A stretch of 47,029 bases of DNA from Desulfuromonas sp. TF (GTDB lineage Bacteria; Desulfobacterota; Desulfuromonadia; Desulfuromonadales; ATBO01): contig NZ_KI421417.1 of the NCBI RefSeq assembly GCF_000472285.1, positions 1-47,029 on the forward strand. The letters run 5' to 3'. Made by a program: the position numbers and the translations under genes. The first letter of the stretch is position 1, and each line of letters begins with the position of its first letter. Shown piece after piece: positions 16,093-46,136 of the stretch. The notes under the pieces were generated by a model. It saw only the letters and a list, made by a program, of their open reading frames with translations. It had not been told where the DNA came from and searched no databases.

Positions 16093-16121
16093 ATCTTATA
16101 TACACTTTACGTAAAAGTCAA
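16093..16121 (-). promoter_or_regulatory. acd-EMO-etfBA operon promoter with MerR-type operator
   Basis: On the minus strand TTGACT (16121-16116) and TAAGAT (16098-16093) are 17 bases apart. The spacer holds the dyad TTTACGTAAA (16106-16115). The same arrangement occurs ahead of fadD and fadL. It lies in the divergent region with the merR-family gene, so regulation by that protein is the simplest reading. Confidence 0.75.
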
Positions 16122-16248: not shown

Positions 16249-16659
16249 ATGAAAGTCAAACAGCACGAAGCCATCCAGATCGGCGAACTGGCCGAATCGC
16301 TCGGGATCACGACCCGAACCATCCGCTATTACGAGGAAATCGGCCTCATGTCCCCTCCCCAGAGGCTCGAAGGGGGTGTTCGCGTCTACAAAAAAGACGA
16401 CATCACAAGACTGAAATTCATCCTCAAGCTAAAGGATCTCGGCATCACCCTCAAAGAAATGCATGAACTCGCCGACATTTACAAAGCCTACCAGGATCCT
16501 GACAAAATGATGCCGAAGCTCCTGAACATTCTTGACATGCACATCAACAACATCGATGAGAAAATCTCCAACCTCTCTTCATTGCGCAAGGAGATCGTCA
16601 ATTACCGGATGAGGGTCCTGGACGTTCTTAACGAGCGAATGGCCGGACAGGAAGGATGA
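16249..16659 (+). CDS. MerR-family transcriptional regulator, probable regulator of fatty-acid oxidation
   Basis: The 136-residue protein has an N-terminal MerR helix-turn-helix (IQIGELAESLGITTRTIRYYEE, split here as the usual IGELA...TIRYYE pattern, residues 10-32) and the wing YKKDDITRLKFI. A long C-terminal coiled coil for dimerisation occupies about 80-125. There are no paired cysteines, so it is not a metal sensor. It is divergent from the acd-EMO-etf operon and lies at the tail of the fadD-led operon. The shared operators listed here make it the likely local regulator. By context it resembles the LiuR group, whose inducers are acyl-CoA degradation intermediates; that is an inference. 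Confidence 0.87.
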   Translation: MKVKQHEAIQIGELAESLGITTRTIRYYEEIGLMSPPQRLEGGVRVYKKDDITRLKFILKLKDLGITLKEMHELADIYKAYQDPDKMMPKLLNILDMHINNIDEKISNLSSLRKEIVNYRMRVLDVLNERMAGQEG

Positions 16660-16689: not shown

Positions 16690-17865
16690 TTATCCCTTTC
16701 TACCGAACACCCGGCGCACCTTCTTCTTCATCCCGCAGACAATATAGGGAGCAAGGCGTCCTTTTTCCTTGAGTATCCTCCTGAAGAGCTCTTTCCTGCT
16801 CTCCGGCGGAAGAGGCCTGGTTCTGCGTTCTGACAGGAACAGGGCTCCCCTCCTGCAGGCCGGAACGCAGGCGCCGCAGCCGAGACAGAGAGGTTCGGAG
16901 ACGATGCATCCTTCGTCATTATCGGCTCCGACCGGGCCGATCGCACCGACATTACAGGCGGCAAAGCAGAGCCCGCAGCCATTGCAGAACTCCCTGTCAA
17001 TCACGGCCAGGAAGGGGGTCCTGGCAACCCCCTCCGGATATCCCATCCGCATCCCCGCCAGAAGCTCGCAGCAGCACGAGCAGCAATTGCAGATGAAGGA
17101 AGGGTTTTGCCGGATATTGTCGGTGATGTGCGTCAAGTTCTTCTCTCGGGCCCGGGCGAGGACGGCCAGCAACTCCTCGGCATCCTTCTGCTCGGCGAAT
17201 CCCCTGCGGACCATGAACTTCGCCGCCGTCCCCAGAGAGATGCAGATTCCATACAATGGCGCCCCTTTGCGGCAGCTGTCTCCAAGATGCTCCTTTTTGT
17301 GGCGGCAATAGCACATCCCCACCGCTCCGTAACCGGCCTGACGGATGATCTCCCTGGCACTCTCATAAGTGGTGATCTCCGAGGTCACCGGGATCTGCTC
17401 CTCATGGACCAGCGAGCGCGTCAATGGAGTCCGACTGCCGAAAAACTCCTTCGCCATCCCCTCCCGGGGATTCTCGTGCATGTACTCCTGCATCAGTTGA
17501 GCGACTTCTTTTATCGGAAGATCGGTGCGGCTCTTCATGAAGGTGAACTCGAAGAATCCGATCAGGCCTGGCATCAGAAGATAATAAGTCGCTCCCCCAT
17601 AGGGGAGATCCATCACCAGTCCCTTGTCGGCCATTCGCTCGAGGATCGGCCGGAGCTGCGCATCCTCTATCTTCGTCCGGCGGGAAAGTTCGGGGAGGGT
17701 CGCCTCCTCCAGGGGAAAACGCGAGGCGACGAAAGCTTCCTCCTTGTCGAAGAGCAGGGTGAGAATCTCCCGCAGCTTCTCGCTGTCGACGAGACCGACG
17801 GGATACTTGTTCAGCCGATCGATGAGCGGAACGATGCTGCTTTTTGAGCCGATGTGATGTCCCAT
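16690..17865 (-). CDS. Polyferredoxin-like 4Fe-4S protein with winged-helix-like N-terminus
   Basis: The 391-residue soluble protein starts with a region (about 10-80) that reads like a winged helix (LPELSRRTKIEDAQLRPILERMADKG). A middle part has cysteine clusters CYCRHKK and CNCCSCCCEL. Two classic 4Fe-4S motifs, CNGCGLCFAAC and CLGCGACVPAC, lie near the C-terminus. ATG 17865 is preceded by GGAGGACAAA. It is the last gene of the nine-gene beta-oxidation operon, 37 nt after the enoyl-CoA hydratase. I do not recognise a characterised relative. An electron-transfer role linked to acyl-CoA redox steps is inferred from cysteines and context only. Confidence 0.8.
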   Translation of the reverse strand: MGHHIGSKSSIVPLIDRLNKYPVGLVDSEKLREILTLLFDKEEAFVASRFPLEEATLPELSRRTKIEDAQLRPILERMADKGLVMDLPYGGATYYLLMPGLIGFFEFTFMKSRTDLPIKEVAQLMQEYMHENPREGMAKEFFGSRTPLTRSLVHEEQIPVTSEITTYESAREIIRQAGYGAVGMCYCRHKKEHLGDSCRKGAPLYGICISLGTAAKFMVRRGFAEQKDAEELLAVLARAREKNLTHITDNIRQNPSFICNCCSCCCELLAGMRMGYPEGVARTPFLAVIDREFCNGCGLCFAACNVGAIGPVGADNDEGCIVSEPLCLGCGACVPACRRGALFLSERRTRPLPPESRKELFRRILKEKGRLAPYIVCGMKKKVRRVFGRKG

Positions 17866-17902
17866 TTTGTCCTCCGTACTCTCTCCTCTGCCAGAAGACT
17901 TT

Positions 17903-18688
17903 TCAGCTGAAGCGGCTGAAATCAGGCCTTCTTCGCTCGAAAAAGGCGGCAAATGCCTCTTTCGCTTCCGGAGACGATAGCCTCTGCAGGAAGTGCCGCC
18001 CTTCCTCCGCCATAGTTTCGGCCACGGCGCGGCGGCACGCCTTCTTCAGCAGGTCCTTGGTCAGACGCACCGCAGCTGGCGGCCTCTGCGCGAGCTTCCG
18101 CGCCAGGGCGTAGGCCTGGTCGAACAGCTCTCCATCGGGAAATACCGCATTGACCAGACCGATCTCCTTCGCCCGTTCGGCCCCGAAGGGTTCGCCGAGA
18201 AGCAGCAGTTCGGCCGCTCGCTGGTACCCTGCAAGGTGCGGCAGCAGCAGACTGCAGGCCGCCTCGGGACAGAGCCCCAGGTTGACGAAGGGAAGTTCGA
18301 ACCGAGCTCCTTCGCCGGCACAGACCAGGTCGCAGTGCAGCAGCATCGTGGTGCCGACTCCGACAGCAGGGCCAGAGACGGCGGCAATAATAGGTTTCTG
18401 CGCTCTGCTGATCGTCTGGAGAAAGTGAAAGACCGGGCTCTCCTCTCCGGCGGGCGGCGAATCCACGAAATCGTTGAGGTCGTTGCCGCTGGTGAAACAA
18501 GTGCCGTTCCCCTCGATCAGGATGACTCGGATATCGGGATCGCGGTCGGCGTGGAGGATGGCTTCGGCAAGGGCCTCATACATGGAGGGAGACAGGGCGT
18601 TCATCTTCGCCTGCCGGTCGATGGCGAGATGAAGAATGTACTCCCGGCATACGCAGGCAATCTCCGGCGACGAACTGACAAAATCCAC
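17903..18688 (-). CDS. Enoyl-CoA hydratase/isomerase family protein
   Basis: The 261-residue crotonase-fold protein has the acyl-CoA-binding strand LAIDRQAKMNALS, the oxyanion-hole segments FTSGNDLNDF and AVSGPAVGVGTTMLLHCD, and FVNLGLCPEAACSLLLP. The usual hydratase Glu pair is not obvious: the position after GLxPE has E but the first Glu is not clear. It may thus be an isomerase, as in ECI/PaaG-like enzymes, rather than a hydratase. An AGGAGG lies between the TTG at 18706 and GTG 18688, so GTG 18688 is taken as the start. In the operon it would help process unsaturated acyl-CoAs together with the fadH-type reductase. Confidence 0.87.
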   Translation of the reverse strand: MDFVSSSPEIACVCREYILHLAIDRQAKMNALSPSMYEALAEAILHADRDPDIRVILIEGNGTCFTSGNDLNDFVDSPPAGEESPVFHFLQTISRAQKPIIAAVSGPAVGVGTTMLLHCDLVCAGEGARFELPFVNLGLCPEAACSLLLPHLAGYQRAAELLLLGEPFGAERAKEIGLVNAVFPDGELFDQAYALARKLAQRPPAAVRLTKDLLKKACRRAVAETMAEEGRHFLQRLSSPEAKEAFAAFFERRRPDFSRFS

Positions 18689-18750
18689 GTGTTTTTTCCT
18701 CCTCAAAAGGTTGGCCGGGCTTCTTCTTTGAAAAGCTTGGGATTAATCCC

Positions 18751-19308
18751 TTAGAGGCCCAGCCCCAGCATTCCTTCCTTGAGATTCTGGTCCGCCGGCT
18801 CGTCGCCCAGGTATATCGCCAGTATCCCCCGGGACAGATCCGGCGATGTCAGAGAGCCAAGGAGCTGCCCGTTGTGCAGAACCGACACTTCTCCATGCGG
18901 GCCAAGCTCCAGGTCGACTTTATCGCCCTCGGCGAAGTCACGATTAAAAAGGGAGAGAAATTTTCGCGCTTCGTTCGACCCGGATAGTTCGGGAGTATTG
19001 TTGGCAAATCCTTCGGCAAAGGCATCGAGAATCTTCTCCCTCTCGACTTTTTTGTAAACGAAGGTCATTCGGATCAGCTTCGGACCGGGATCACGCACTG
19101 CCTCCGCCAGGCTGGCCACCCGACTTCCGGTATAGAGCGATCCGACATAGATGCTGATGAAGAACTTCTTGCGGACACCGCAGCCGTTCAGTTTCAGGGT
19201 CCGGCTTCCGATCACCGCCGTCTCCGAGATGTCAATCCCGGCCATCTCCCGGGCTTGAACATTAGTCGCCAGCAGAAGCAGGACGACGAGAGTGACGAGT
19301 TTTTTCAT
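18751..19308 (-). CDS. Periplasmic chalcone-isomerase-like (CHI-fold) protein
   Basis: The 185-residue protein has a cleavable signal peptide (residues 1-19, ending VQA). A chalcone isomerase-like domain follows, with the family's LKLNGCGVRKKFFISIYVGSLY strand pair, which I split as LNGCGVRKK and IYVGSLYT. LIRMTFVYKKV and the C-terminal FLSLFNRDFAEGD and GILAIYLGDEP stretches are also typical. AGGAGG precedes ATG 19308. Bacterial members have no known isomerase activity. Plant CHI-fold relatives (FAP proteins) bind fatty acids. Its place inside a beta-oxidation operon, together with export to the periplasm, suggests a fatty-acid carrier between FadL and the inner membrane. This is a hypothesis. 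Confidence 0.82.
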   Translation of the reverse strand: MKKLVTLVVLLLLATNVQAREMAGIDISETAVIGSRTLKLNGCGVRKKFFISIYVGSLYTGSRVASLAEAVRDPGPKLIRMTFVYKKVEREKILDAFAEGFANNTPELSGSNEARKFLSLFNRDFAEGDKVDLELGPHGEVSVLHNGQLLGSLTSPDLSRGILAIYLGDEPADQNLKEGMLGLGL

Positions 19309-19372
19309 TGTTTGCCTCCTGGATCGTTATGGCAACCCTATGGAACTGCTCAAGCAAATGGAAGAAATCTGC

Positions 19373-19426
19373 ACGCGGATAACATCTGATCCAATCTGAT
19401 GCGCCTTTATCAGATTTGATCCGCGT
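19373..19426. repeat. Nested inverted repeat between chalcone-isomerase-like gene and fadH-type gene
   Basis: An outer pair of arms (ACGCGGAT 19373-19380 and ATCCGCGT 19419-19426) encloses a perfect inner stem-loop (AATCTGAT 19393-19400 and ATCAGATT 19409-19416). This kind of palindromic intergenic unit often occurs in many copies. It lies nine bases after the fadH-type stop codon. Confidence 0.65.
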
Positions 19427-19434
19427 ATAATGAT

Positions 19435-21435
19435 TTAAACTTCCCGCCCCGCGGCGAACCCCTGGTGGATGGCGTCGATGGCCATCCCTACCTGCAATGC
19501 GTCCCCTGCCACCACAAAGGGAATTCCCTTTTTAGCCAGCACCTCCTGCAGGGGATTGAAGGGCCGCGTTCCCACCGCCAGTACAACCGTGTCGGCGGGG
19601 ATCTCTTCCAACCGGCCGCCTTTTTCGACCTTGAGACCGCCGGCGGTGATCTCAAGGACCCGGGATTCCGTCAGCGTCCGGATGCCGAAGCGCTCCAGAT
19701 CCTGAAGCATCCCCCAGCGGGTGGTCCGGCCGAAATTGGTCCCCACCTTATCGAGCATCTCCACCAGGACGATTTCCCTGGTTCCGCGGACGGCCATCTG
19801 CAGGAGGTCCTCCGGTTTTTCGGCGCCATGCACCAGCAGGAACTTCAGCGCCTCGCCGGAGAGGGTCCCCTTTTCAGCCAGCGCCAGGGCTGTTTCCACC
19901 CCCACGGCGCCGCCGCCGACCACGACTACCCTTTCCCCTGCGCAGGCCCGGGCGGCCAGCACGTCCCAGGCCTGCACCACGAAGTCGCGGTCGCATCCCG
20001 GAATGGGCGGTTCGATGGAAGTTCCGCCGGTGGCCAGAATCACCGTGTCTGGCCGTTCGGCATCGATAAGCTGGGCATCGACTTCCCGGCCGAGTTCCAC
20101 CCGGATGTCGCAGGTGTCGACCCGGCGGGCCAGGTCGCGGGCGAGCCGCGCGAACGCCTCCCGCCCGGGAGGAGCGCCAGCCAGATGCAGCTGCCCGCCG
20201 AGGCGGTCGCTCTTCTCGTAAAGGACCACCTCGTGCCCCCGCTCTGCCGCGGCCAGGGCGGCGCTCATCCCGGAGGCCCCGCCGCCGATCACCATCACCC
20301 GGCACCCCTGGGCGACCGGAGGCAATGACCTCTCCTCTTCATGTCCGGCCTGCGGGTTGCAGAGACACTCCACCGCCTTCATCCTGAACAGGTTGTCGAA
20401 ACACCCCTGACCGCAGGCGACGCAGTGCAGAACTTCATCCTCTTTTCCGGCCAGTGCCTTCTCCGGCAGGCGCGGATCGGCGATCAGCGCACGCCCCATG
20501 GCGACCATGTCGCACATACCGTCCCCGATCATTTCCCGGGCCGTCTCCGGATCGTTGATGCGGTGGCTGGCGATCACCGGCACCGGCACTTTTTCCTTGA
20601 TTCCCCGAGCCAGATAACCGAAGACCCCTCGGGGAACCTTGGTGACGATCTGCGGGACGACCGCCTCGTGCCAGCCGACGTTGACGCAGAGGGCGTCCGC
20701 CCCCGCTCCAACGGCCTGGACGGCAAATTCCTGAAGCCCCTCCCTGCCCACCCCGCCCGGCATGAAGTCGTTGCCGTTGAGGCGCACCATGAGGGGGAAA
20801 TCGCTCCCGACCGCATTCCTGACAGCCCTGATGACCTCAAGCCCGAATCGCATGCGGTTCTCGAAGGAGGCGCCGTATTCGTCGGTGCGCCGGTTGGTCA
20901 CCTCGGATAGGAACTCGCTGATCAGGTAACCGGTGCCCGCCAGGATCTCGACCGCGTCAAAACCGGCCTGCCTGACTCGCCGGGCGGCTTGAGCAAAGCG
21001 CGCGACAATTTCTCGGATCTGTCCTATCTCCAGGGCGTCCGGGGCCTCCCCTGTAAGGCGCGACGGGACCGCCGAGGGGGCGACCGGTCTTTTTCCGCCG
21101 AGGAAAAAGGAGTGGTTGTAGCGACCGGCATGATTGAGCTGCACCGAGGCTCGCGCTCCGCCCTGCCGGATGGCATCGGCAAGCCGGGACAGGCCGGGGA
21201 TGAATTCATCGCGGTGGGCGCCGATATGCGCGGGATGGGCGGAGAATTCGTCCACAGAGGCATAGCCGACGGTGATCATCCCCGCGCCCCCCCGGGCCCT
21301 TTCGGCATAGAAACGAATGAGCCGATCGGACACCTCGAAGTTCCGGCACATGTTCAGATGCATCGCCGGCATGGAGATCCGGTTCTTCACTTCAAGTTTG
21401 TTGATGATGATCGGCTCGAAAAGCAGGTCTTTCAT
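19435..21435 (-). CDS. fadH: 2,4-dienoyl-CoA reductase-type NADH:flavin oxidoreductase
   Basis: The 666-residue protein has an N-terminal Old Yellow Enzyme TIM barrel (about 1-330, with GAGMITVGYASV and AGFDAVEILAGTGYLISEFLS) that binds FMN. The FadH-like 4Fe-4S motif CVACGQGC followed eleven residues later by another Cys comes next. Then there is an FAD/NAD(P)H reductase half with two Rossmann motifs (VIGGGASGMSAALAA and VVVGGGAVGVETALALA). This architecture is that of FadH, which reduces 2,4-dienoyl-CoA during oxidation of unsaturated fatty acids. Related enzymes act on trimethylamine or enoates, so the operon context is what favours FadH. ATG 21435 has GGAG upstream; earlier starts lie in a repeat. 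Confidence 0.87.
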   Translation of the reverse strand: MKDLLFEPIIINKLEVKNRISMPAMHLNMCRNFEVSDRLIRFYAERARGGAGMITVGYASVDEFSAHPAHIGAHRDEFIPGLSRLADAIRQGGARASVQLNHAGRYNHSFFLGGKRPVAPSAVPSRLTGEAPDALEIGQIREIVARFAQAARRVRQAGFDAVEILAGTGYLISEFLSEVTNRRTDEYGASFENRMRFGLEVIRAVRNAVGSDFPLMVRLNGNDFMPGGVGREGLQEFAVQAVGAGADALCVNVGWHEAVVPQIVTKVPRGVFGYLARGIKEKVPVPVIASHRINDPETAREMIGDGMCDMVAMGRALIADPRLPEKALAGKEDEVLHCVACGQGCFDNLFRMKAVECLCNPQAGHEEERSLPPVAQGCRVMVIGGGASGMSAALAAAERGHEVVLYEKSDRLGGQLHLAGAPPGREAFARLARDLARRVDTCDIRVELGREVDAQLIDAERPDTVILATGGTSIEPPIPGCDRDFVVQAWDVLAARACAGERVVVVGGGAVGVETALALAEKGTLSGEALKFLLVHGAEKPEDLLQMAVRGTREIVLVEMLDKVGTNFGRTTRWGMLQDLERFGIRTLTESRVLEITAGGLKVEKGGRLEEIPADTVVLAVGTRPFNPLQEVLAKKGIPFVVAGDALQVGMAIDAIHQGFAAGREV

Positions 21436-21460
21436 GTCCGTCTCCAGTAAATCCGTGAGA

Positions 21461-21493
21461 CGTGAGGAGTGAGGATACGCCTCACTCCTCACG
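21461..21493. repeat. 14-bp perfect hairpin between MBL gene and fadH-type gene (GTGAGGAGTGAGG family)
   Basis: Arms 21461-21474 and 21480-21493 pair perfectly around ATACG, just ahead of the fadH ribosome binding site. The unit GTGAGGAGTGAGG recurs near 36878-36943, so it is a dispersed element rather than a local accident. In the operon it could modulate translation or stability of the fadH segment. Confidence 0.75.
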
Positions 21494-21497
21494 GATT

Positions 21498-22442
21498 TCA
21501 AGCCACCGCAGCATAGGCGAAGCGGATCTTATGAAACAGCCCCAGCTCTTCGAGAGATGCCTTCAACAGCAGGGGATCATCCAGAAAATCCTGCATGAAG
21601 GCGATTTCCGATACCTTCAGGAAGGTGACGAACGGATCATTCAGAGCATCGCCGAAGAGCTGATCGATCAGCCGGCGAACCGGCAGCGCGTGGGGAAACT
21701 CCTTCAAGCGCTGGGCCCGCTCGAAGATCTTGCCGACGTAGAAAAGAATGGTGCCCTCGAGGCTCTCAACAGTGTGCCGGTGACCGGGGAGGATTTCACA
21801 ATCCCGCAGTTCCCCCAGCTTCAGAAGGCTAGCGCAGTAGGCCTCGTAATTGCGGAAGCGGCCGGCGAAGGTCTCGAGGTCGATGTCGAGGAGCGGCGCC
21901 TGAAAGATATTGTGCAGCAGAATGTCCCCGGTAACCGCCTGAGCACCGACCTTGTAGACCAGATCGCTCTGGGAGTGGCCGGGACAGGCGATTATCTGGA
22001 TGCCGAGCCGGACCGGTTCCGGTGATTCCTCCACGATGGTGAACTTCTCCGGGACCCCCGGAAAAATACTGTTTTGGTCGACCACGTCACGAAACTGCTG
22101 AATGTAGTCGCGTCCGAATCCCATCCCTTCCAGTTCGTCCTCGATGTGCGTAAGGCGCATCCCATGGTGACGAAGCTTCAGTGCGTCCTTGCGGGGGATA
22201 TAGATCCGCGCATCGGAGTTCTCCCCGATGAACCGCGCCAGTCCGTAATGATCAACATGGCAGTGAGTGATGAAGACATGCTTCAGACGCCCCAGGTCCA
22301 CCGAACGCCGCAGAAAATCCCGCCCCTCTTCCGTCGCCGGTCCGGTATCGAACAGCACCGGTTCACCGTCGATCTCGGTGGTGTAGAAGTGAGTCTCCCC
22401 CACCAGGTAGGGGGTATGGATGGTGTGCTGTTGCATGATCAT
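21498..22442 (-). CDS. Metallo-beta-lactamase-fold hydrolase in the beta-oxidation operon
   Basis: The 314-residue protein shows the MBL metal motif THCHVDHYG, the later ligand in CPGHSQSD, the aspartate in AVTGDILLH, and LPGHRHT near the end. This is close to glyoxalase II-like hydrolases with a C-terminal helical extension. Starts at 22442 (ATG) and 22436 (ATG) are both possible; neither has a strong ribosome binding site. Earlier in-frame starts lie in repeats. Its position between fadE- and fadH-type genes suggests a thioester or lactone substrate, such as an acyl-CoA or glutathione-like thioester. Nothing in the sequence proves that. Confidence 0.8.
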   Translation of the reverse strand: MIMQQHTIHTPYLVGETHFYTTEIDGEPVLFDTGPATEEGRDFLRRSVDLGRLKHVFITHCHVDHYGLARFIGENSDARIYIPRKDALKLRHHGMRLTHIEDELEGMGFGRDYIQQFRDVVDQNSIFPGVPEKFTIVEESPEPVRLGIQIIACPGHSQSDLVYKVGAQAVTGDILLHNIFQAPLLDIDLETFAGRFRNYEAYCASLLKLGELRDCEILPGHRHTVESLEGTILFYVGKIFERAQRLKEFPHALPVRRLIDQLFGDALNDPFVTFLKVSEIAFMQDFLDDPLLLKASLEELGLFHKIRFAYAAVA

Positions 22443-22508
22443 CCCGTCATAAAGGTCCCGGGGTCCCGGGTCCAAGGTCAAACCTCATTCAGACTTCGAC
22501 TCAGACCG

Positions 22509-22540
22509 GGACTTTGGACTTTGGACTTTGGACTCGGACT
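22509..22540. repeat. Short tandem repeat GGACTTT
   Basis: Three exact GGACTTT units and one and a half degenerate ones (22509-22540) overlap the fadE-type stop codon region. Palindromic GGTCCCGGGGTCCCGGGTCC lies 30-50 bases further on. Repeats of this type fill the fadE-MBL junction. Confidence 0.7.
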
Positions 22541-24317
22541 AAAAAATATATTTTTCCATCTCGATCGCTGCGCCGGCCAGCGTCCGCTTGGCCTGGAGCA
22601 GACCGGTGGCGTCGTATTTGGCGAAACGGCGGATGCCGGAGAGGATCATGGTCAGGTTGTCACCTTCTTCGATGTAGAAGGCCCCCTTTTTCGCCGCAGT
22701 GGAAAGGAGTTCGGTGGCGTTAAAGGCGCAGACCTTGATCACGGCCGCCAGCAGCTCCTTCCGATGCTCGCTCGCTTCAGCGAAGCCCTTTTCGGCCCGT
22801 AGTACCGCGCTCTCCAGAGCGAATATCTGGATCGACATATCGGCGGCGGCAAGGAGGATCTCCTGCTCGTTCTGCAGTTTGACCATGTACTTTTGTACAG
22901 CAGTCCCGGAAAGAATGAGAAAGACGGTCTTGAGGTTCTGGAGAAGCGCCTTCTCCCGCGCGAAGGGGACGCTGTCATCGATCTCCTCGAAGGAGGGGGT
23001 CATCAGTGATTCGAAAGCCTTCATCGCCTCCTTCTGCAATGGAAGCTCCCCCTTCATCGCCTTCCGCAGGATCATGCCGGGGATGAGCAGACGATTAATC
23101 TCATTGGTTCCTTCAAAAATCCGGTTGATCCGCTCGTCGCGATAGAAGCGCTCGGCCGGGTATTCGCTGACGAAACCATAGCCGCCGTGAATCTGCAGCA
23201 CCTCGTCGACCACCGAAGCGAGAACCTCGCTGCAGTAGACCTTGGAGATGGCGCACTCGGGGGCGTACTCCTCGATCCCCTTCTGGTATTCCTCATAGTA
23301 GTTGGCGGTCCCCTTGTCGATGGTCGCCAGCCTGGTGTCGAGCAGCCCTGCCAGTCGGTAGACGAGGGATTCGGACGCGAAGATGTCGGTTGTCATATCG
23401 GCGAGCTTCTCCTGGACCGCCCCGAAGGAGCCGATCGCCCTTCCGAACTGCTTGCGCTCGTTGGCATACTTCACCCCTTCCACAAAGGCCGCCTTGGCGG
23501 CCCCCGTGACTCCTGCGGCGAGCTTGAAGCGGCCGACGTTAAGGACGTTGAAGGCGATTTTGTGCCCTTTGCCTATCTCGCCGAGAAGGTTCTCCGCCGG
23601 CACCTTGCAGTTGTCGAGGATGATCTGGGTGGTCGAGGAACCCTTGATCCCCAGCTTCTTCTCCTCGGGGCCGATGACGAGCCCTTCACAGTCGCGGTCG
23701 ACCAGAAAGGCGGTGAAATGCTTCTTGTCGATCTTGGCGAAGACGGTGTAGAGATTGGCGAAGGAGCCGTTGGTGATGAACTGCTTTGTGCCATTGAGGA
23801 CGTAGTATTTGCCGTCCTCGGAGAGGGTGGCCGACGCATTGGCCCCCAAGGCGTCGCTGCCTGAACCCGGCTCGGTCAGGCAGTAGGCGGCCACCCATTC
23901 TCCGGTGATGATCTTTTCCAGGTATTTCTCCTTCTGCGCCCGGGTACCGTAATAGACCAGGGGCAGAGTCCCGATCCCCGAGTGGGCGGCGTAGGCGACG
24001 GAGAAGGAGCCCGATGGGGCGATCTTTTCCCCGACCAGCATGCTGGTCGCCTTATCAAGCTCCAGACCGCCATACTCCTCGGGGGCGTCGATCATCAGCA
24101 GCCCCAGTTCGCCGGCTTTGCGCATCCCCTCCACCACCAGGGCGAAGTTCTGCTGCTCGATCTCCTCGGCATGGGGGAGGATATCATTGAGAACGAACTG
24201 TTCGGTCGTCTCCCCGATCTGCCGCTGCTCGTCGGTAAAGTCCTCGGGGGTGAAGACCTCCGCACAGCTCACTTCAGTCACCAGATATTCCCCACCTTTT
24301 AAAATTCTCTGAGTCAT
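22539..24317 (-). CDS. fadE: Long-chain acyl-CoA dehydrogenase, FadE/VLCAD type
   Basis: The 592-residue enzyme has a standard acyl-CoA dehydrogenase core: CLTEPGSGSDALG, QIHGGYGFVSEYPAERFYRD and FEGTNEINRLL with the catalytic Glu. It also has a C-terminal extension of some 180 residues, as in VLCAD, ACAD9 and Bacillus FadE. This form handles long-chain acyl-CoA and donates electrons to ETF. GAGG lies about nine bases ahead of ATG 24317. It follows the thiolase gene in the fadN-fadA-fadE order known from Bacillus. The 192-nt gap before it contains a long inverted-repeat element. Confidence 0.92.
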   Translation of the reverse strand: MTQRILKGGEYLVTEVSCAEVFTPEDFTDEQRQIGETTEQFVLNDILPHAEEIEQQNFALVVEGMRKAGELGLLMIDAPEEYGGLELDKATSMLVGEKIAPSGSFSVAYAAHSGIGTLPLVYYGTRAQKEKYLEKIITGEWVAAYCLTEPGSGSDALGANASATLSEDGKYYVLNGTKQFITNGSFANLYTVFAKIDKKHFTAFLVDRDCEGLVIGPEEKKLGIKGSSTTQIILDNCKVPAENLLGEIGKGHKIAFNVLNVGRFKLAAGVTGAAKAAFVEGVKYANERKQFGRAIGSFGAVQEKLADMTTDIFASESLVYRLAGLLDTRLATIDKGTANYYEEYQKGIEEYAPECAISKVYCSEVLASVVDEVLQIHGGYGFVSEYPAERFYRDERINRIFEGTNEINRLLIPGMILRKAMKGELPLQKEAMKAFESLMTPSFEEIDDSVPFAREKALLQNLKTVFLILSGTAVQKYMVKLQNEQEILLAAADMSIQIFALESAVLRAEKGFAEASEHRKELLAAVIKVCAFNATELLSTAAKKGAFYIEEGDNLTMILSGIRRFAKYDATGLLQAKRTLAGAAIEMEKYIF

Positions 24318-25762: not shown

Positions 25763-28150
25763 CTAATTCCGCAGCGGCTTCCCCTTCTTCAGCATGTGCT
25801 GGATCCGCTCCACCGTCTTTTTGTTGCCGCATAGCTTGAGGAAGCCTTCCCTCTCGAGTTCGAGCAGATACTGTTCGGTGATCAGAGTTCCCGCCGGGAC
25901 GTCGCCGCCGGTGATGACTCCTGCGATGACGCCGCCCATCTCTGCCTCATAAGGGGTGACGAAACCTCCCATCTGCATGTTCCAGAGCTGGCTCCGGATG
26001 CTGGCGGCGACGCTCCGGCCGGGAGCCTTGAGGTTCTCTTCCGGCCGCCCTGGACGGTAATTGCAGGAGAGGGCGATGACCTTCTGCTTGGCGTCGGCGA
26101 TAAGATTGTCGATGTTCATGGTGATGGAGTCCCCCTCGTCCATGTACCCCATTTGGGATAGCTCGGCGGCCCCCATCGACACCTTGGCCATTCCGATGTT
26201 CTGGAAGTTCTTGAAGATGAAGGGGGAGACGTCGGTGTCGTAGCGGTTGGCCAGGCGAATGGCGCGCAGTGCCATCTCCTTGGTCCCGCCGCCGCCCGGC
26301 AGCAGCCCGACCCCGATCTCGACCAGGCCCATATAGGTTTCGGCATGGGCGTTGATGGCGTCGGAATGGAGGCAGAACTCGCAGCCGCCGCCCAGGGTCA
26401 TGCCGAAGGGGGCGGCCACTACCGGCACCCTGGAGTACTTCAGCGCCATGGTCGCCTTCTGGAAAGCCTTCACCGCCATGGCGACGTCGTCGTAAGCCCC
26501 TTCGGCGATGGCCACGGCAAGCATCATCAGGTTGGCCCCGACGGAGAAGTTGGCGCCCTGGTTGCCGACGACCAGTCCGACACCCTCTTCTTCGGCGCGC
26601 CGAACCGCCTTGTGGGTCATGGCCAGGATGTCGCCGCTGATGGCGTTCATCTTCGAATGGAATTCCAGGCCGAAGACACCGTCGCCCAAGTCGATGATGG
26701 AGCAGTTGGCGTTCTTCTCCACCACGGAGCCGCCGCGCTTGAGAATATCGAGATGAATCTGGTCGGGGCTGACGGGAACATCCCGGTATTCGCCGGAGAG
26801 CAGGTCGAAGAACTGCTTTCTGGCACCCTCGAAGCGGTAGAAGCGCTCCACCTTGCGAAGTGACTTGGGGACGGTTGCCCCGTCCTTTTCAGCCCGCTCG
26901 ACAAAGGATGCCACGCCGATGGCATCCAGTATTTCAAAGGGTCCGAGTTCCCAGTTGAAGCCCCAGCGCATGGCATTGTCGACGTTGACGATGTCGTCGG
27001 CGATCTCGGGGATGCGGTTCACCGTGTAGATCAGGGTGTCGCGCAGGTTGCGCCAGGCGAATTCGCTCCCCCTGTCGCTCCCCTCGACCACCATCTTGAG
27101 GCGTTTAGCCGGATCGTCCACCTGCTTTCCCGCGTCGACGGAAGCGAACCGTGGCTTCTGCGCCGGCAGATACTCGCCTGTGTTGTAGTCGTAAAAGAAA
27201 ACCTTGCTGCCGCCCTCCCCCTTCTCCTTGCGGTAGAAGCCTTTTTTGCTCTTGTTTCCGAGGAGCCCTCCCTCGACCATTTCCGCCATGAACTCCGGCA
27301 CCTTGAAGACGTCGCGCTCCTCGTCGTCGGGGAGCAGTTCCCAGGAGTTGTTGCCGACGTGCATCAGGGTATCGATGCCCACCAGATCGGCGGTCCGGAA
27401 CGCGGCGCTCTTGGGGCGGGCTGTGGCGGGACCGGCGATCGCGTCGACTTCCTCCACGGTCATCTCCATGTCGATCATGTGACGGATCGATTTGTAGATG
27501 GCATACACCCCGATGCGGTTGGCGATGAAGTTGGGGGTGTCCTTGGCGTAGACGATCCCTTTGCCGAGGCGGCGGGCGAGAAAATCACTCATTTGGGAGA
27601 GCAGTTCGGGATCGGTGTCCCTGCATCCGACTACCTCGAGCAGACGCATATAGCGCGGCGGATTGAAAAAGTGGGTGACCAGGAAGTTTTTGCGCACCGC
27701 CTCGGGGAGGACGGCCACCATCTCGTTCACCGACAGGCCGCTGGTATTGGTGGAGAGGATCGCCCCCGGCGCCAGGTTCGGCACCACTTTTTCCGTAAAG
27801 AGCCTTTTCTTGATCTCCATGTTCTCGATGACGACCTCGACTACCCAGTCGCACTCCCTGAGCCCTTCCATGTCGTCTTCGAAATTCCCCGTCTCCACGT
27901 GCCGGGCGTAGTCCTTGAGATAGAAGGCGGCCGGCTTCATCTTCACAACCGCCTCCAGGCCGTTGTTCACGATGCGGTTGCGAACCTCGGGGCTGTTCAG
28001 CGTGAGCCCCCTGGACTTCTCCCCTTCGGTCAACTCCCGGGGGATGATATCCAGCAGAAGAACATCCAGGCCGGCGTTGACCAGATGGGCTGCGATGGTG
28101 GCGCCCATAACCCCCGAGCCGAGTACGGCCACCCGATTGATTTGCCTCAT
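25763..28150 (-). CDS. fadN: Fused 3-hydroxyacyl-CoA dehydrogenase / enoyl-CoA hydratase (FadN type)
   Basis: The 795-residue bifunctional enzyme begins with the NAD-binding Rossmann motif VAVLGSGVMGATIAAHL and continues through the hydroxyacyl-CoA dehydrogenase lobes (VTHFFNPPRYM with the catalytic-type His). A crotonase-fold hydratase half follows in the C-terminal 400 residues (FGMTLGGGCEFCLHSD and VEIGVGLLPGGGG). Dehydrogenase-first order is that of Bacillus FadN/YusL, the reverse of E. coli FadB. GGAGGAAAAAG precedes ATG 28150, about 26 nt after the fadD stop. It does two steps of beta-oxidation and lies between fadD and fadA. Confidence 0.93.
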   Translation of the reverse strand: MRQINRVAVLGSGVMGATIAAHLVNAGLDVLLLDIIPRELTEGEKSRGLTLNSPEVRNRIVNNGLEAVVKMKPAAFYLKDYARHVETGNFEDDMEGLRECDWVVEVVIENMEIKKRLFTEKVVPNLAPGAILSTNTSGLSVNEMVAVLPEAVRKNFLVTHFFNPPRYMRLLEVVGCRDTDPELLSQMSDFLARRLGKGIVYAKDTPNFIANRIGVYAIYKSIRHMIDMEMTVEEVDAIAGPATARPKSAAFRTADLVGIDTLMHVGNNSWELLPDDEERDVFKVPEFMAEMVEGGLLGNKSKKGFYRKEKGEGGSKVFFYDYNTGEYLPAQKPRFASVDAGKQVDDPAKRLKMVVEGSDRGSEFAWRNLRDTLIYTVNRIPEIADDIVNVDNAMRWGFNWELGPFEILDAIGVASFVERAEKDGATVPKSLRKVERFYRFEGARKQFFDLLSGEYRDVPVSPDQIHLDILKRGGSVVEKNANCSIIDLGDGVFGLEFHSKMNAISGDILAMTHKAVRRAEEEGVGLVVGNQGANFSVGANLMMLAVAIAEGAYDDVAMAVKAFQKATMALKYSRVPVVAAPFGMTLGGGCEFCLHSDAINAHAETYMGLVEIGVGLLPGGGGTKEMALRAIRLANRYDTDVSPFIFKNFQNIGMAKVSMGAAELSQMGYMDEGDSITMNIDNLIADAKQKVIALSCNYRPGRPEENLKAPGRSVAASIRSQLWNMQMGGFVTPYEAEMGGVIAGVITGGDVPAGTLITEQYLLELEREGFLKLCGNKKTVERIQHMLKKGKPLRN

Positions 28151-28176
28151 CTTTTTCCTCCGTTCTCTGATTTGGA

Positions 28177-30003
28177 TCATGTGGCGGAACCGGTTCCGTT
28201 TTCAAAATAGAGCCGGTCGATCTGGTTTTTGTACTTTTCGCAGATCACCTTGCGCTTGAGCTTCAGCGTGGGTGTGAGTTCCCCCCCCTCCACGGAGAAA
28301 TCCCGGGGAAGAATGACGAACTTCTTGATCGTTTCATAGGAGGGGAGCCGGGCGTTGACCGCCCCGATGCGTTCTTCGAACAGCGCCCGCACCCTTTCGT
28401 TGGTCACCAGGTCCTCGACATCGAAAAAATGGACTTTTTCCTGATGTGCCAGTTCGATGAGGCGCTCCATGTTGGGCGTTATCAGGGCTACCAGATAGGG
28501 CTGACGGTCGCCGAAGACAAATGCCTGGGAAATGTACTTGTCGAGCTTCAGTTCGTTCTCGATCGGCTGCGGAGCAATGTTCTTCCCACCGGCAGTGACG
28601 ATGATCTCCTTCTTGCGGTCGACGATATAGACGAACCCCTCCTCGTCGACCCGGGCGATGTCGCCGGTGCTGAGCCATCCGTCCACAACAGTCTGCGCCG
28701 TCGCCTCTTCGTTCCGATAATAGCCCCGCATTACCTGAGGCCCCCGAACCAGCAGTTCTCCATCTTCGGCCAGCCTGACTTCAGTCTTCTCCAGGACCCT
28801 GCCCACGGAACCGAAGCGCACCTCGTCGATATTGTTCAAGGTTATGGCCGGGCTCGTCTCGGTCAGCCCATACCCTTCGAATGTGGGGATTCCGATGATC
28901 CACATGAACTCGTTGATGGTCTTGTCCAGCGGCGCTCCGCCGGAAATGCAGAAACGCAGGCGGCTGCCGAACTTTTCCCTGATCTTACGAAAAACCAGGC
29001 GGTCGGCCATCCGGTACTGCACCCCGAGGAGCCCAGGTGCTTCCCGCCGGATGTACCGGCAGTGAACGTATTCGCGGCCGATCTCCACCGCCTTGTGGAA
29101 CATCCGTCGCTTGAGCGGACTCATCAGATGGACATTCTCGTAGATGCGCGAATAGATTTTCTCGAAAAGACGCGGCACGCTGACCATGGTCGTGGGCCGC
29201 ACTTCCACGATGTTTTCCACCACCTTCTCGACACTCTCGGCGAAGGCCACATGACAGCCGTGCATGAGTGCGGCATGGTAACCGGCCGTGCGCTCAAGAA
29301 CATGGCTGAGGGGGAGAAAACTCAGAAATACCTCCGGCTTCGCCATCCCGCCCAGTTTCTTGACGCCGTAAAAAGCGTCGAAGAGCATGTTGGCCTGGGT
29401 CAGCATGACTCCCTTGGGCACGCCCGTCGTTCCGGAGGTATAAATGATGGTGATGAGATCTTCCGGAGTGATCCGGTCGATTTCCGCTTCGACCAGGCGC
29501 CTCTCCTCCGAAGTGAGGGGATGGGAGACTTCGGAGAGCTGATAGAGAGTATACACCGGCAGAGCCGGGCTGCCCATGAAACGATCATAGGAAATGGCCA
29601 TTTCGACAAGGGGGATCTGCTCGCGAACGGCCAGAAGCTTTTCGTATTGAATCCTGTTGGAGACGAAGACGATTTTCGCCTCCGAATGGTTGAGAACGTA
29701 CGCGATCTGGTCTGGGGTATTGGTGGCGTAGATGGGGACGGTGACGGCGCGGACCGACTGAATACCGAAATCGGAGATGGCCCATCCCGCCCGGTTCTCC
29801 GAAAGGATCGCCACCCGGTCCCCGGGCTTCACGCCCGCCTTGACAAGACCGCGGGCCGCCATCAGAACGCGCTCGTAGAGATGGTTATAGGCCAGGGAGA
29901 TGAACTCTCCCCCCTTCTTGTAGCTGATGGCGGGCTGTCCGCCGAACCGGACGGCGTTTTCCCTCAGCATGGCGGGCACGGAGCTGTAAGGAACCTCGAT
30001 CAT
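28177..30003 (-). CDS. fadD: Long-chain fatty acid-CoA ligase (FAA1/FadD type)
   Basis: The 608-residue adenylate-forming enzyme has the AMP-binding motif IIYTSGTTGVPKG, LPLSHVLERTAGYH, FEGYGLTETSPAI, DIARVDEEGFVYIVDRKKEII and a C-terminal lysine-containing TPTLKLKRKVI. It activates free fatty acids to acyl-CoA at the inner membrane. GGGAGG lies about ten bases before ATG 30003. It heads the nine-gene operon, and its promoter carries the shared operator and 17-bp spacer. The protein class is the eukaryote-like FAA1 form rather than the E. coli FadD form. Confidence 0.93.
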   Translation of the reverse strand: MIEVPYSSVPAMLRENAVRFGGQPAISYKKGGEFISLAYNHLYERVLMAARGLVKAGVKPGDRVAILSENRAGWAISDFGIQSVRAVTVPIYATNTPDQIAYVLNHSEAKIVFVSNRIQYEKLLAVREQIPLVEMAISYDRFMGSPALPVYTLYQLSEVSHPLTSEERRLVEAEIDRITPEDLITIIYTSGTTGVPKGVMLTQANMLFDAFYGVKKLGGMAKPEVFLSFLPLSHVLERTAGYHAALMHGCHVAFAESVEKVVENIVEVRPTTMVSVPRLFEKIYSRIYENVHLMSPLKRRMFHKAVEIGREYVHCRYIRREAPGLLGVQYRMADRLVFRKIREKFGSRLRFCISGGAPLDKTINEFMWIIGIPTFEGYGLTETSPAITLNNIDEVRFGSVGRVLEKTEVRLAEDGELLVRGPQVMRGYYRNEEATAQTVVDGWLSTGDIARVDEEGFVYIVDRKKEIIVTAGGKNIAPQPIENELKLDKYISQAFVFGDRQPYLVALITPNMERLIELAHQEKVHFFDVEDLVTNERVRALFEERIGAVNARLPSYETIKKFVILPRDFSVEGGELTPTLKLKRKVICEKYKNQIDRLYFENGTGSAT

Positions 30004-30032: not shown

Positions 30033-30061
30033 TTTATATATTACTTTTACGTATGCGTCAA
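30033..30061 (-). promoter_or_regulatory. fadD operon promoter with MerR-type operator
   Basis: On the minus strand TTGACG (30061-30056) and TATAAA (30038-30033) are 17 bases apart. The spacer contains CATACGTAAAAGT, the same core as at acd and fadL. The transcript would start about 20 nt before the fadD ATG. Confidence 0.8.
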
Positions 30062-30200
30062 GCACTTTTAAAACATTTTTCTATCGCTTTTCTTCTGCGC
30101 ATTATTTAGCCAACCAACCGCCGCGGAAAGCTTGCTCGGGGCATAAGTTCAAACCGCTCAGGGGTTCCCGGCTTGAATCGCAACCGATCTTCCAATTTCA

Positions 30201-30234
30201 AATAAAAACCCCCGGCCTGATAAGCCGGGGGTTT
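30201..30234 (-). terminator. Rho-independent terminator of fadL
   Basis: The perfect 11-bp stem (30206-30216 with 30224-30234) is followed, in the minus direction, by a run of T interrupted once. It begins about 27 nt beyond the fadL stop. It separates fadL from the fadD operon, so each uses its own promoter. Confidence 0.85.
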
Positions 30235-30260
30235 CCTGTTGCCGCAAACGGCGGCGGGCA

Positions 30261-31622
30261 CTAAAAGCTGTACGCGAGCTGAATACTGGCTATATCGACT
30301 TCGTTTTCGTACTCACCCTGCAGATTGCCCCGGGAGAGGTTCTCCGCATCGGCGGTGCTTTTGTCGATTTTGGAGTCCTTGACGAAGAGGTGAGCATAGG
30401 CGAAGTCGATCTTCATTCTTTCGCCGATTTGATAGCCGACGCCAATGGACGTCCAGATCCGGTCCTCGCAGGGAATCCTGGGCGTCCGGTATTTGGCGCT
30501 CGGGACAGGGGTCTCGTCGTATGCCAGACCGAGTCTCAGATCCAGCTTCTCATTCGGGCTGTACGTCGCCCCGACCGCATAGCGCCAGCTGTCGTCCCAG
30601 TTTTCAGCGGTCACGCTGTCGGCCAGCCCACCATCGAACTCGATGACTAGCCAGTCAAAGGTGCTCCATTCGGTCCACAGCACGTCGGCCATCACCGCCC
30701 ACTGTGGGTTGATGCGGTGAAAGACACTCAGGGAGGCGCTTGCCGGCAGGGTGATGTCCCCTTTCACATCCTGGTCCGGGAAGGCTGCCTGCGCCGCGGC
30801 CTGCAGACCGACGGCCGATAGAAATGCCGGGTTCTGAAGGCTGAAATCCCCCTCGCCCTCGACCGTGTGGTCGATACGAGAGCGATAGGCCAAGCCGATG
30901 CGCGAATCGTCGTCGAATTCATAGAGCACCCCGAGGTTGAACCCGTACCCCCAGTCGTCGGCAGTCAGGTCGGCATAGACATCGGCATCGGGATTGGAAA
31001 CGATGGGCAGCAGGGCCGGATTGCCTCCACTCGACTGGAAGGCGGCGAGGCCGAAATCGACCATACTGGTGAGGTTAACATCAACATACTGGGCGCTGAC
31101 CCCGGCCCCGAGGCTCAACCGGTCATTGACCTTGTAGGCGACGGAAGGATTGATATTGATCGTCATGACATCGGACTTAACGCCATGGTAGCGCCCGACC
31201 CACGTCTTGTCGTATTCGGTCACCAGCCCGAAGGGCGCCGTCACCCCCAGACCGAGGGACCAGCCGTTGTCCAGGTTCGCCGAGTAAAAGAAATTCGGGA
31301 CGATGCCGGTTTCGCCCGCATCTCCTCCATTTCCCCCGGAAATGGGCTGCCCGAGCGCATTGCTGGCATTTTCCTTTTCGAATTTGGCCGACGGAACAAT
31401 CACATGTAGTCCGGCAATGGCCTGCTGGCCCTTGAGCCGTGTCAGGCCCGCCGGGTTGAAATAGACGGTCGTGGCGTCCTCCGCGGAAGCCGCCCCCCCG
31501 GCAAAGGCGTTGCCGAGGCCGCTTACGCTCTGCTCAATAATGGCAAACCCGGCGCTGAAGGCCGGCGAGGCCATCGCAAGAATACCCAACATGCCCACGA
31601 GCATTGCTGATTTTGCTTTCAT
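30261..31622 (-). CDS. fadL: FadL/OmpP1/TodX outer-membrane long-chain fatty acid transporter
   Basis: The 453-residue protein has a signal peptide cleaved near ASPAFSAG, then the FadL N-terminal plug signature FAIIEQSVSGLGNAFAGGAASAEDA and DATTVYFNPAGLTRL. A string of amphipathic beta strands follows. It ends in aromatic YSF, the outer-membrane insertion signal. It admits long-chain fatty acids through the outer membrane. GAGGAGCGGTT precedes ATG 31622. The shared operator in its promoter ties it to fadD and the acd operon even though it has its own transcript. Confidence 0.93.
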   Translation of the reverse strand: MKAKSAMLVGMLGILAMASPAFSAGFAIIEQSVSGLGNAFAGGAASAEDATTVYFNPAGLTRLKGQQAIAGLHVIVPSAKFEKENASNALGQPISGGNGGDAGETGIVPNFFYSANLDNGWSLGLGVTAPFGLVTEYDKTWVGRYHGVKSDVMTININPSVAYKVNDRLSLGAGVSAQYVDVNLTSMVDFGLAAFQSSGGNPALLPIVSNPDADVYADLTADDWGYGFNLGVLYEFDDDSRIGLAYRSRIDHTVEGEGDFSLQNPAFLSAVGLQAAAQAAFPDQDVKGDITLPASASLSVFHRINPQWAVMADVLWTEWSTFDWLVIEFDGGLADSVTAENWDDSWRYAVGATYSPNEKLDLRLGLAYDETPVPSAKYRTPRIPCEDRIWTSIGVGYQIGERMKIDFAYAHLFVKDSKIDKSTADAENLSRGNLQGEYENEVDIASIQLAYSF

Positions 31623-31698: not shown

Positions 31699-31727
31699 TG
31701 TATATCCCACCTTTACGTGCAAGTCAA
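31699..31727 (-). promoter_or_regulatory. fadL promoter with MerR-type operator
   Basis: On the minus strand TTGACT (31727-31722) and TATACA (31704-31699) are 17 bases apart, and the spacer contains GCACGTAAAGGT. The transcript would start about 70 nt before the fadL ATG. Confidence 0.8.
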
Positions 31728-32897: not shown

Positions 32898-34211
32898 ATG
32901 TCCATCTATTCGGCGACCCAGCGTGAAATTGCTGAACGCATTTCCATGGAAAACGCCTCCCTTACCAACTGGAAAGATTGGAAATGGCAGCTTAAAAACT
33001 CCGTTCAGGGTATCGAGAAATTTGAAGAACTCCTTGGTATCCGGCTCAATCCGGGGGAAAGGGCCAAAATCGAGCTGACCCTGAAAAAATTCCCTCTCTC
33101 CGTCACCCCCTATTATCTGTCCCTGATAGATCCCGACGACTTCGCCAACGATCCGGTTTTCAAGCAGGCTTTCCCCTCCCCGGAGGAACTGTGCATCGAG
33201 CGCCATGACATGAGCGACCCCCTTGCCGAGGACCAGGACAGTCCTACCGAAGGCATCACCCATCGATATCCGGACCGGGTCCTGTTCACCGTCAGCAACA
33301 TCTGCTCCATGTATTGTCGACACTGCACCCGCAAGCGCAAGGTAGGAGACGTCGACTCCATCCCCGGCCGGGAGCAGATCGAAAAGGGCCTCGATTACAT
33401 CCGCAACACCCCTGTGGTTCGGGACGTCCTCCTCTCCGGCGGCGATCCCCTGATGCTCTCCGACGACTACCTCGACTGGATTCTGACCGAACTGCGCAAA
33501 ATCGACCACGTCCAAATCGTCCGCATCGGTACCCGCATGCCGGTGGTCCTCCCTTATCGGATCACCGACGAACTGGTCGCGATGCTGAAGAGGCATCATC
33601 CGATCTGGATCAACACCCACTTCAACCATCCGCGGGAGATCACTACCAGCTCAAAGACCGCACTTCGGATGCTGGCCGATGCCGGCATTCCCTTGGGCAA
33701 CCAGTCTGTCCTGCTGGCTGGAATCAACGACTGCCCTAGGATCATGAAGGCCCTGGTTCACAAGCTGGTGGACAACCGTGTCCGCCCCTATTATCTCTAT
33801 CAATGCGATCTCTCCGAAGGTCTCAGCCATTTCCGCACTCCGGTGGGGAAGGGAATTGAGATCATGGAGAGCCTGCGGGGTCATACCAGCGGTTTCGCCG
33901 TCCCGACCTATGTCGTCGATGCTCCCGGCGGCGGCGGCAAGATACCGCTCACCCCTAACTACCTTATATCCATCTCCACCAACAAGGTGGTCCTCCGCAA
34001 CTACGAGGGGGTGATCACCACGTATCAGGAGCCCGACAGCTATGAGCCGATCTTCTGCGACCGCAAGTGCGACGAGTGCCGGCTCCACCTGAAGCTCGAC
34101 GACGCCGAGGAGCAGCGAGCTACCGGTATAGAGATGCTCCTGTGCGATTACGACAGGACTATATCCCTCACCCCCGAGGAGAACAGCCGCATGGAGCGCC
34201 GAAGTGGGTGA
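32898..34211 (+). CDS. ablA: Lysine 2,3-aminomutase
   Basis: The 437-residue radical-SAM enzyme carries the cluster motif [22 protein letters not shown], the PLP lysine in PGGGGKIPL and a C-terminal cysteine group ([11 protein letters not shown]). It moves the alpha-amino group of L-lysine to give L-beta-lysine. ACAGGAGAAAAC precedes ATG 32898. It overlaps the start of ablB. The pair is the known route to the compatible solute N-epsilon-acetyl-beta-lysine of methanogens and some marine bacteria. Alternatively aminomutases serve lysine fermentation, but no fermentation genes are near. Confidence 0.94.
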
Positions 34212-35070
34212 TGTAATCGAAATTTTCGGAGATTCGATGATTCAGCACGGCAAGCACAGCGACCGGGTCTACCTGATGAGCCTGTCGACCGGCGACCTGC
34301 CTGGAGTGCTGAACCATCTTGATGCGCTGGCTGAAACCAGGGATTACAGCAAGATATTCGCCAAGGTCCCCGCCTCGGTCTCTGCCGTCTTCATGGAAAA
34401 CGGGTACGCGATCGAAGCGGCGGTCCCCGGCTTGCTGAGTGGTGAAGAAGGCCTCTTCATCGGGAAATATCTCTCAGCGAAACGGAAGGAGGAGGGACGG
34501 TCCGATCTGGTCCGGGAAGTCCTGGCGACGGCCCAGGCAAAAGCCTGTACTCAGCCGGACCTCGCCCTGGCCTCGACCTTCACCTGCCGCCGGACCAGAC
34601 CTGAGGAAGCGGAGGAAATGGCCGAACTATATCGTCAGGTCTTCGCCACTTACCCTTTTCCCATACACGACCCCGGGTACCTGGTAGAGACCATGGAAAG
34701 CCATGTCCATTATTACGCCATCTGGGAGGAGAACGAACTTGTCGCCCTGGCCTCCGCTGAAATGGACCACAAGGGCCTGAATGCGGAAATGACAGATTTC
34801 GCGACTCTTCCTGAATCCCGGGGGAAGGGTCTGGCCAATTGCCTGCTGGCGAGGATGGAAGAGGATATCCTGGATCTGGGCATCCAGACCGCCTACACCA
34901 TCGCCCGGGCTTACTCCCATGGGATGAACATCACCTTTGCCAAGAACGGCTATGAGTTCTGCGGAACCCTTACCAACAATACCGATATCTCTGGCGGACT
35001 GGAGAGTATGAACGTCTGGTTCAAACCGCTGGATTCAGAGGCGGGAGAAGTTTCAGTGGCCCAAGAGTGA
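34204..35070 (+). CDS. ablB: Beta-lysine N-acetyltransferase
   Basis: The 288-residue protein has the AblB N-terminal stretch [17 protein letters not shown] and a GNAT acetyltransferase domain (about 125-275). The latter contains [20 protein letters not shown], read here as the acetyl-CoA-binding R-G-K-G loop. It completes N-epsilon-acetyl-beta-lysine, an osmolyte. GTG 34204 is preferred, because N-termini of known AblB proteins begin about ten residues before the IQHGK motif, and a GGAG lies eight bases ahead. ATG 34237 also has a good ribosome binding site. It overlaps ablA by eight bases, a sign of coupling. Confidence 0.9.
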
Positions 35071-43838: not shown

Positions 43839-43868
43839 AAGCGGAAACCTGAATTAAAAGAGGAATGC

Positions 43869-46016: not shown

Positions 46017-46136
46017 GATCATTGATCCTCGTTGCTGGTTGTTACCTTATGTCAGGAAAATAATAGAATTATTGGCCGAGATACCAGGCGAACTGGTGGC
46101 AACAGACTCATTGAGCCTGGAATCCGGGCGGCCGGC

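Follow-up and report, generated by a model that had tools for sequence, protein, structure and literature searches.

Introduction

Fatty-acid-binding proteins (FAPs) of plants share the fold of chalcone isomerase (CHI). They reside in the plastid and are tied to fatty-acid metabolism or synthesis (PMC9313115, PMC6688129). The second of these sources, a review, describes FAP family members from many bacteria and names Arg36, Thr48 and Tyr106 as catalytic residues of CHI (PMC6688129). Aim18p and Aim46p of yeast carry four of the five FAP1 active-site residues and are described as binding haem and not fatty acid, the arginine being important for haem; in the same account, the ancestral function of the fold is debated and haem is proposed (PMC9996372). 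The uptake route considered here starts with FadL, which releases long-chain fatty acids sideways into the outer membrane; how they then reach the inner membrane is, in the words of a 2022 review, 'still unclear' (PMC9329746). This wording agrees with the initial annotation of the DNA analysed here, according to which the periplasmic step between FadL and FadD lacks an assigned carrier.

Literature searches on chalcone isomerase with FadL, beta-oxidation, operon, periplasm or bacterial fatty-acid binding returned, among the matches listed, no title or abstract start linking a bacterial CHI-like protein to fatty-acid uptake, which is weak evidence of absence with subscription journals mostly outside their scope. 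Fold, family and FAPs in bacteria are already known; new, as far as we found, is an exported branch tied to FadL.

Results

The window is the whole stretch of 47,029 nucleotides analysed from contig NZ_KI421417.1 of Desulfuromonas sp. TF. Its relevant features are:

16106..16121 (+), motif TTTACGTNNNNGTCAA between the MerR gene and an acyl-CoA dehydrogenase/etf cluster, upstream of the cluster
16249..16659 (+), divergent gene of a MerR-family regulator, candidate for the shared motif
16690..17952 (-), 4Fe-4S protein, recurrent in the run
17903..18706 (-), enoyl-CoA hydratase/isomerase family protein (ech)
18751..19308 (-), gene of an exported CHI-fold protein (Chalcone_3), from open reading frame, Pfam and predicted fold
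19435..21501 (-), FadH/old-yellow-enzyme-like reductase
21498..22481 (-), MBL-fold hydrolase
22539..24317 (-), acyl-CoA dehydrogenase (acad), 592 aa
24510..25832 (-), FadA-like thiolase, true start probably inside the open reading frame
25763..28180 (-), FadB-like hydroxyacyl-CoA dehydrogenase/enoyl-CoA hydratase
28177..30003 (-), FadD-like acyl-CoA ligase (AMP-binding), first gene of the run
30046..30061 (+), motif TTTACGTNNNNGTCAA upstream of the fadD...CHI run
30185..30260 (-), 15-bp hairpin followed by Ts, closing fadL
30261..31622 (-), FadL/OmpP1-family outer-membrane transporter in its own transcription unit (Pfam Toluene_X, E=1.7e-116)
31712..31727 (+), motif TTTACGTNNNNGTCAA upstream of fadL

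The run reads fadD-fadB-fadA-acad-MBL-fadH-CHI-ech, followed by the 4Fe-4S protein gene, so that the CHI gene is the seventh of a beta-oxidation operon, as first annotated, when counted from fadD. No flavonoid genes were seen in the window. Since the 15-bp hairpin and its Ts close fadL, this gene lies outside the fadD...CHI operon; a consensus terminator scan did not list the hairpin. The transporter scored 241 bits against the NCBIfam FadL model, under the cut-off of 585, and its substrate is therefore assumed. A gap of 126 bp containing one weak promoter-like match precedes the CHI gene, which makes an internal promoter conceivable, and one may be present here. A scan of 18600-19700 returned a single promoter-like and a single terminator-like match, about as many as expected by chance, and a hairpin in the gap was discarded as unremarkable (z about -2).

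Further genes of the window and its relatives deserve mention. The 4Fe-4S protein and the MBL-fold hydrolase recur in the fad run across the order. Adjoining fadL, a lysine 2,3-aminomutase and a GNAT acetyltransferase are encoded at 32898-35070(+), which we take to be the layout of acetyl-beta-lysine synthesis; an aminomutase-like gene was also seen by eye 3' of the CHI gene in locus L092. Methylmalonyl-CoA mutase with MeaB, at 42861-46022(-), could serve odd-chain fatty acids.

The 16-bp motif TTTACGTNNNNGTCAA has three exact matches in the window, whereas 100 shuffles yielded none, a figure that overstates the case because the pattern was written after the sites had been seen. The 4.4-Mb genome holds four exact matches, and with one mismatch 16 sites versus 8 for the reversed control. 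In relatives, one-mismatch sites lie at similar places, for example directly before fadD in L039 and L040. The sites upstream of fadL, the fadD run and the etf cluster suggest a small fad/etf regulon, in line with the earlier proposal that the CHI run and FadL are co-regulated. The regulator acting on the motif is likely the MerR-family protein encoded at 16249, which may be of LiuR type.

The CHI gene encodes 185 aa, with AGGAGG directly 5' of the ATG. Pfam Chalcone_3 (PF16036) matches the product with E=1.2e-43 and 149.5 bits (gathering score 27) and was found in all 78 aligned relatives at E<=0.001; an NCBIfam search with the protein gave no match at E<=1e-5. The N-terminus (MKKLVTLVVLLLLATNVQA/RE) resembles a Sec-type signal peptide with a Lys-Lys start, a hydrophobic core and a VQA site, as judged by crude hydropathy and inspection by eye, and all 81 homologous open reading frames listed begin with a hydrophobic stretch. 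By this signal-peptide-like start, the protein reads as periplasmic.

An AlphaFold2 model of the mature protein, computed from an alignment of 78 sequences, reached a mean pLDDT of 95.8 and is predicted to have the CHI fold. Together with the exact open reading frame, the Pfam match and the signal-like start, it bears out the initial annotation of a secreted CHI-like protein at this place. AtFAP1 ranked first in Foldseek (E=2.7e-11, 26% identity) and aligned in VIA-align over 157 residues with Z 17.9 and rmsd 2.5. Z values of 17.5-19.2 for CHI, CHIL and FAP structures did not separate these three kinds; Aim18p (16.5) and Aim46p (15.4) fell below FAP and CHI, two chloroplast motor subunits reached 12.0 and 10.6, and the background began at 3.6. 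A single-sequence search of the PDB returned 4DOO (AtFAP1) as best match with E=1.3e-10, and a profile search AtFAP1 (1.5e-14) and AtFAP3 (5.5e-12), with ancestral CHIs behind from 1.1e-6. Judged by sequence, the nearest solved proteins are fatty-acid-binding CHI-fold proteins, ahead of CHI enzymes.

Residue equivalences to FAP and CHI were read by eye from the profile alignment. The bacterial LNGxGIRKKFF lies opposite LLGVGLRKKSL of AtFAP1, within a weak first segment, which places Arg46 at the CHI/FAP ligand arginine. The window protein thus has the FAP-type arginine together with a tyrosine, Tyr54, at the CHI Thr48 position, two residues which we assume to serve the ligand in FAP1. Of the bona fide CHI set, the arginine is kept, Thr48 is replaced by Tyr54 and Tyr106 by Ile93; for Thr48 and Tyr106 the MsCHI sequence served as reference. 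In the set of 125 aligned proteins, all 67 fad-labelled copies carry both Arg46 and Tyr54. Unlinked members of the main group have Arg46 just as regularly (44 of 46), so the arginine marks this group and not fad linkage. It is absent from all 12 aligned paralogs of clade B (10 Leu, 1 Phe, 1 Met), in which Tyr54 and Tyr59 are retained. The segment LIRMTFVYKK, initially regarded as a positively charged mouth, was given up as a general carboxylate site: its Arg80 is kept in Desulfuromonadota copies and variable in those of Burkholderiales.

A recurring fad neighbourhood in other genomes, the check first proposed for a link to fatty acids, was found in two groups whose operons are built differently, namely Desulfuromonadales/Geobacter kin and Burkholderiales with fadL-fadB-fadA-CHI. 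In two loci (Desulfuromusa L098, Desulfuromonas L101), the CHI gene follows fadL as a bare pair, without further core markers alongside. Core fad genes share the strand of the CHI gene in 48 of 80 loci of relatives and occupy the opposite strand in one. The remaining 31 include all six gammaproteobacterial loci and four Geomonas copies, some on short contigs. The gap from fadH to CHI measured 23-36 bp in 20 loci, and that from fadA to CHI 14-183 bp in 10 betaproteobacterial loci. These ten of the 48 fad-linked loci (L117, L120, L123, L124, L125, L128, L131, L133, L135, L136) have the fadB-fadA-CHI type, with FadB mostly 36-38% identical to that of the window; fadL lies upstream in seven, and in the other three the contig ends less than 4 kb upstream. 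Within the order of the window genome, 11 of 13 loci of the CHI group sit in a fad run, nine on the same strand and two (L037, L042) on the other. The other PF16036 copies (15 loci, several of them on short contigs) all lie outside such a run; one of these loci, L047, has an old-yellow-enzyme match (37%) about 8 kb off. The 80-locus set overlaps with the genome set of the order (e.g. L060/G036, L092/G040), and counts were kept separate.

The Chalcone_3 family occurs in 96 of 200 Burkholderiales genomes. Regions were taken for 36 of the 80 matches with E<=1.3e-30, mostly every second row. Same-strand fadA and fadB lay upstream in 16 of 34 strong-match regions, 13 of them with fadL too; the distance from CHI to fadA was 22-617 bp in 13 and 1.5-1.7 kb in three. 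No fad neighbours accompanied the other 18 strong-match regions, and none of six weak-match regions had fadA and fadB upstream. The family is also present in Fusobacteriota, Acidobacteriota and Gammaproteobacteria MAGs, and was found in none of 14 control genomes, among them E. coli, a FadL user. As side observations, two CHI-like genes at most 1.5 kb apart lie within the fad run in L086 and L093, and by eye CHI-like genes of Acidobacteriota (L111, L112) lie near acyl-CoA carboxyltransferase-like genes.

A tree of the copies was built leaving out duplicates (L060, L088, L119) and partial sequences (L105, L093b). Its 67 fad-labelled copies comprise 64 plus L104, L106 and L107, which carry the label through 4Fe-4S or MerR genes of the run and have 'none' in the core-fad count; L074 and L081, on short contigs, received the label 'other'. 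A strongly supported group unites the Desulfuromonadota copies (49 rows, 41 of them fad-labelled), which lie apart from those of Burkholderiales. The fad label needs 14 changes versus a shuffled mean of 41.6, and at least five are forced by strong branches. Separate recruitment into the fad operons of the two groups is likely; an old fad association may instead have been lost many times.

Co-occurrence was counted in 136 genomes of the order, many incomplete, with Fisher values that ignore relatedness. A match of at least 44% identity was taken as close FadL, fragments (G002, G022, G306) being scored as present and matches of 27-41% as absent; the CHI group was defined by E below 1e-60 and occurs in 24 genomes. 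Close FadL was present in 20 of these 24 versus 13 of the 112 others (p=8.7e-12), and FadB in 18 of 24 versus 49 of 112 (p=0.007). Across the order, the CHI group is associated more with close FadL than with FadB. Of the 67 FadB-positive genomes, 18 have close FadL and 14 of these carry CHI; of the 49 without close FadL, four do (p=7e-8). Within the 33 close-FadL genomes, CHI also tracks FadB (14 of 18 FadB-positive genomes, six of 15 others; p=0.04), so the tie is not to FadL alone. Clade B has no tie to FadL (7/22 vs 26/114, p=0.42). All six CHI genomes without detected FadB have close FadL (G031, G040, G300, G305, G306, G325); five are less than 90% complete and G031 is 98% complete, and some thiolase is present in five of the six. 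Thirteen of the 33 close-FadL genomes have no CHI-group member, several of them 99-100% complete (G010, G019, G039, G315, G316, G328), which counts against an obligate link.

Discussion

The analysis provides a predicted CHI fold, an export signal, recurrent fad linkage, the FadL association and a conserved ligand-site arginine. We favour, at about an even chance, a periplasmic fatty-acid- or lipid-binding partner of FadL for growth on exogenous long-chain fatty acids. More tentatively, we propose a dedicated periplasmic carrier of the FadL pathway, an exported CHI/FAP branch that would carry fatty acids between the two membranes, would have entered the fad operons of Desulfuromonadota and Burkholderiales separately and possibly stands near the original function of the fold. 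Kinship to FAPs, co-encoding with uptake and degradation genes and its absence from most genomes without close FadL make the protein a natural candidate for a carrier. The initial reading as a periplasmic fatty-acid carrier has accordingly gained recurrent fad linkage, the association with FadL and the relationship to FAP1/FAP3, and is weakened by the many relatives away from fad genes and by haem binding of yeast proteins with the same fold and arginine.

Ligand, transfer and direction are what we infer. FadL would release the fatty acid into the outer membrane, from which the CHI-fold protein might pick it up. The cleft that separates sheet and helices would house the chain, and Arg46/Tyr54 its carboxylate; the fatty acid would then be delivered to the inner membrane for activation by FadD. 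In this role, the protein would serve as a soluble carrier, or as a buffer, between the two membranes.

Any kind of FadL partner would suit the tie to FadL and the fadL-CHI pairs, and enzymes are among the proteins with the CHI fold. A periplasmic helper or enzyme that targets fatty acids or FadL itself, for instance an isomerase of lipids or a partner in the folding or gating of FadL, could explain the tie and the pairs with no carrier function. We consider this unlikely, as CHI Tyr106 is replaced by Ile93, the Thr48 place is taken by tyrosine and the best relatives are non-catalytic FAPs. Comparably improbable is a general lipid-binding or stress protein of the envelope whose gene has often entered fad operons as a hitch-hiker. 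Loci and Burkholderiales regions without fad neighbours (31/80 and 18/34) and the occurrence of the family in Fusobacteriota, Acidobacteriota and Gammaproteobacteria MAGs fit such a protein, yet the linkage tracks FadL and is shared by two groups whose operons differ.

Haem binding with an incidental fad neighbourhood, as a bacterial counterpart of Aim18p/Aim46p, seems improbable to a still higher degree. The same fold and arginine do occur in those proven haemoproteins, which fail to bind fatty acid (PMC9996372), and because the arginine is important for haem there, the site alone does not reveal the ligand. However, our alignment shows no His, Cys or Met that reaches 80% conservation in both fad-linked groups, which lowers the likelihood of haem; Aim18p and Aim46p rank under FAP and CHI by structure, and the linkage is to fad genes. 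Chalcone isomerase function is rejected, since the catalytic tyrosine aligns with Ile93, Thr48 is replaced by Tyr54 and the gene context speaks against it.

The proposed carrier is a specific candidate for the periplasm-crossing gap after FadL that the review acknowledges (PMC9329746). Its presence in culturable Geobacter and Geomonas opens this gap to direct testing and, if the proposal is true, the CHI fold gains a prokaryotic role.

Among known systems, clade-B paralogs of the same order (L015-L023, L026-L029) share the Pfam family and signal-like N-terminus of the window protein, but are about 25% identical, have the arginine replaced and lie outside the fad run. With E. coli FadL-FadD uptake, the outer-membrane transporter and the acyl-CoA ligase are common, whereas the Chalcone_3 protein is absent from the control genomes. 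Bona fide chalcone isomerases have the fold (Z about 18) and the catalytic arginine in common with it and differ at the places of Ile93 and Tyr54. Aim18p and Aim46p likewise share fold and arginine, whereas the yeast pair is described as mitochondrial with an extra fungal loop (PMC9996372). Closest are the plant type III proteins AtFAP1 (4DOO) and AtFAP3 (4DOL), the best sequence and profile matches in the PDB, which have the fold, the ligand-site arginine and the aligned tyrosine in common with the window protein. They are plastid proteins, whereas their bacterial relative carries an export signal and sits with genes for fatty-acid uptake and degradation.
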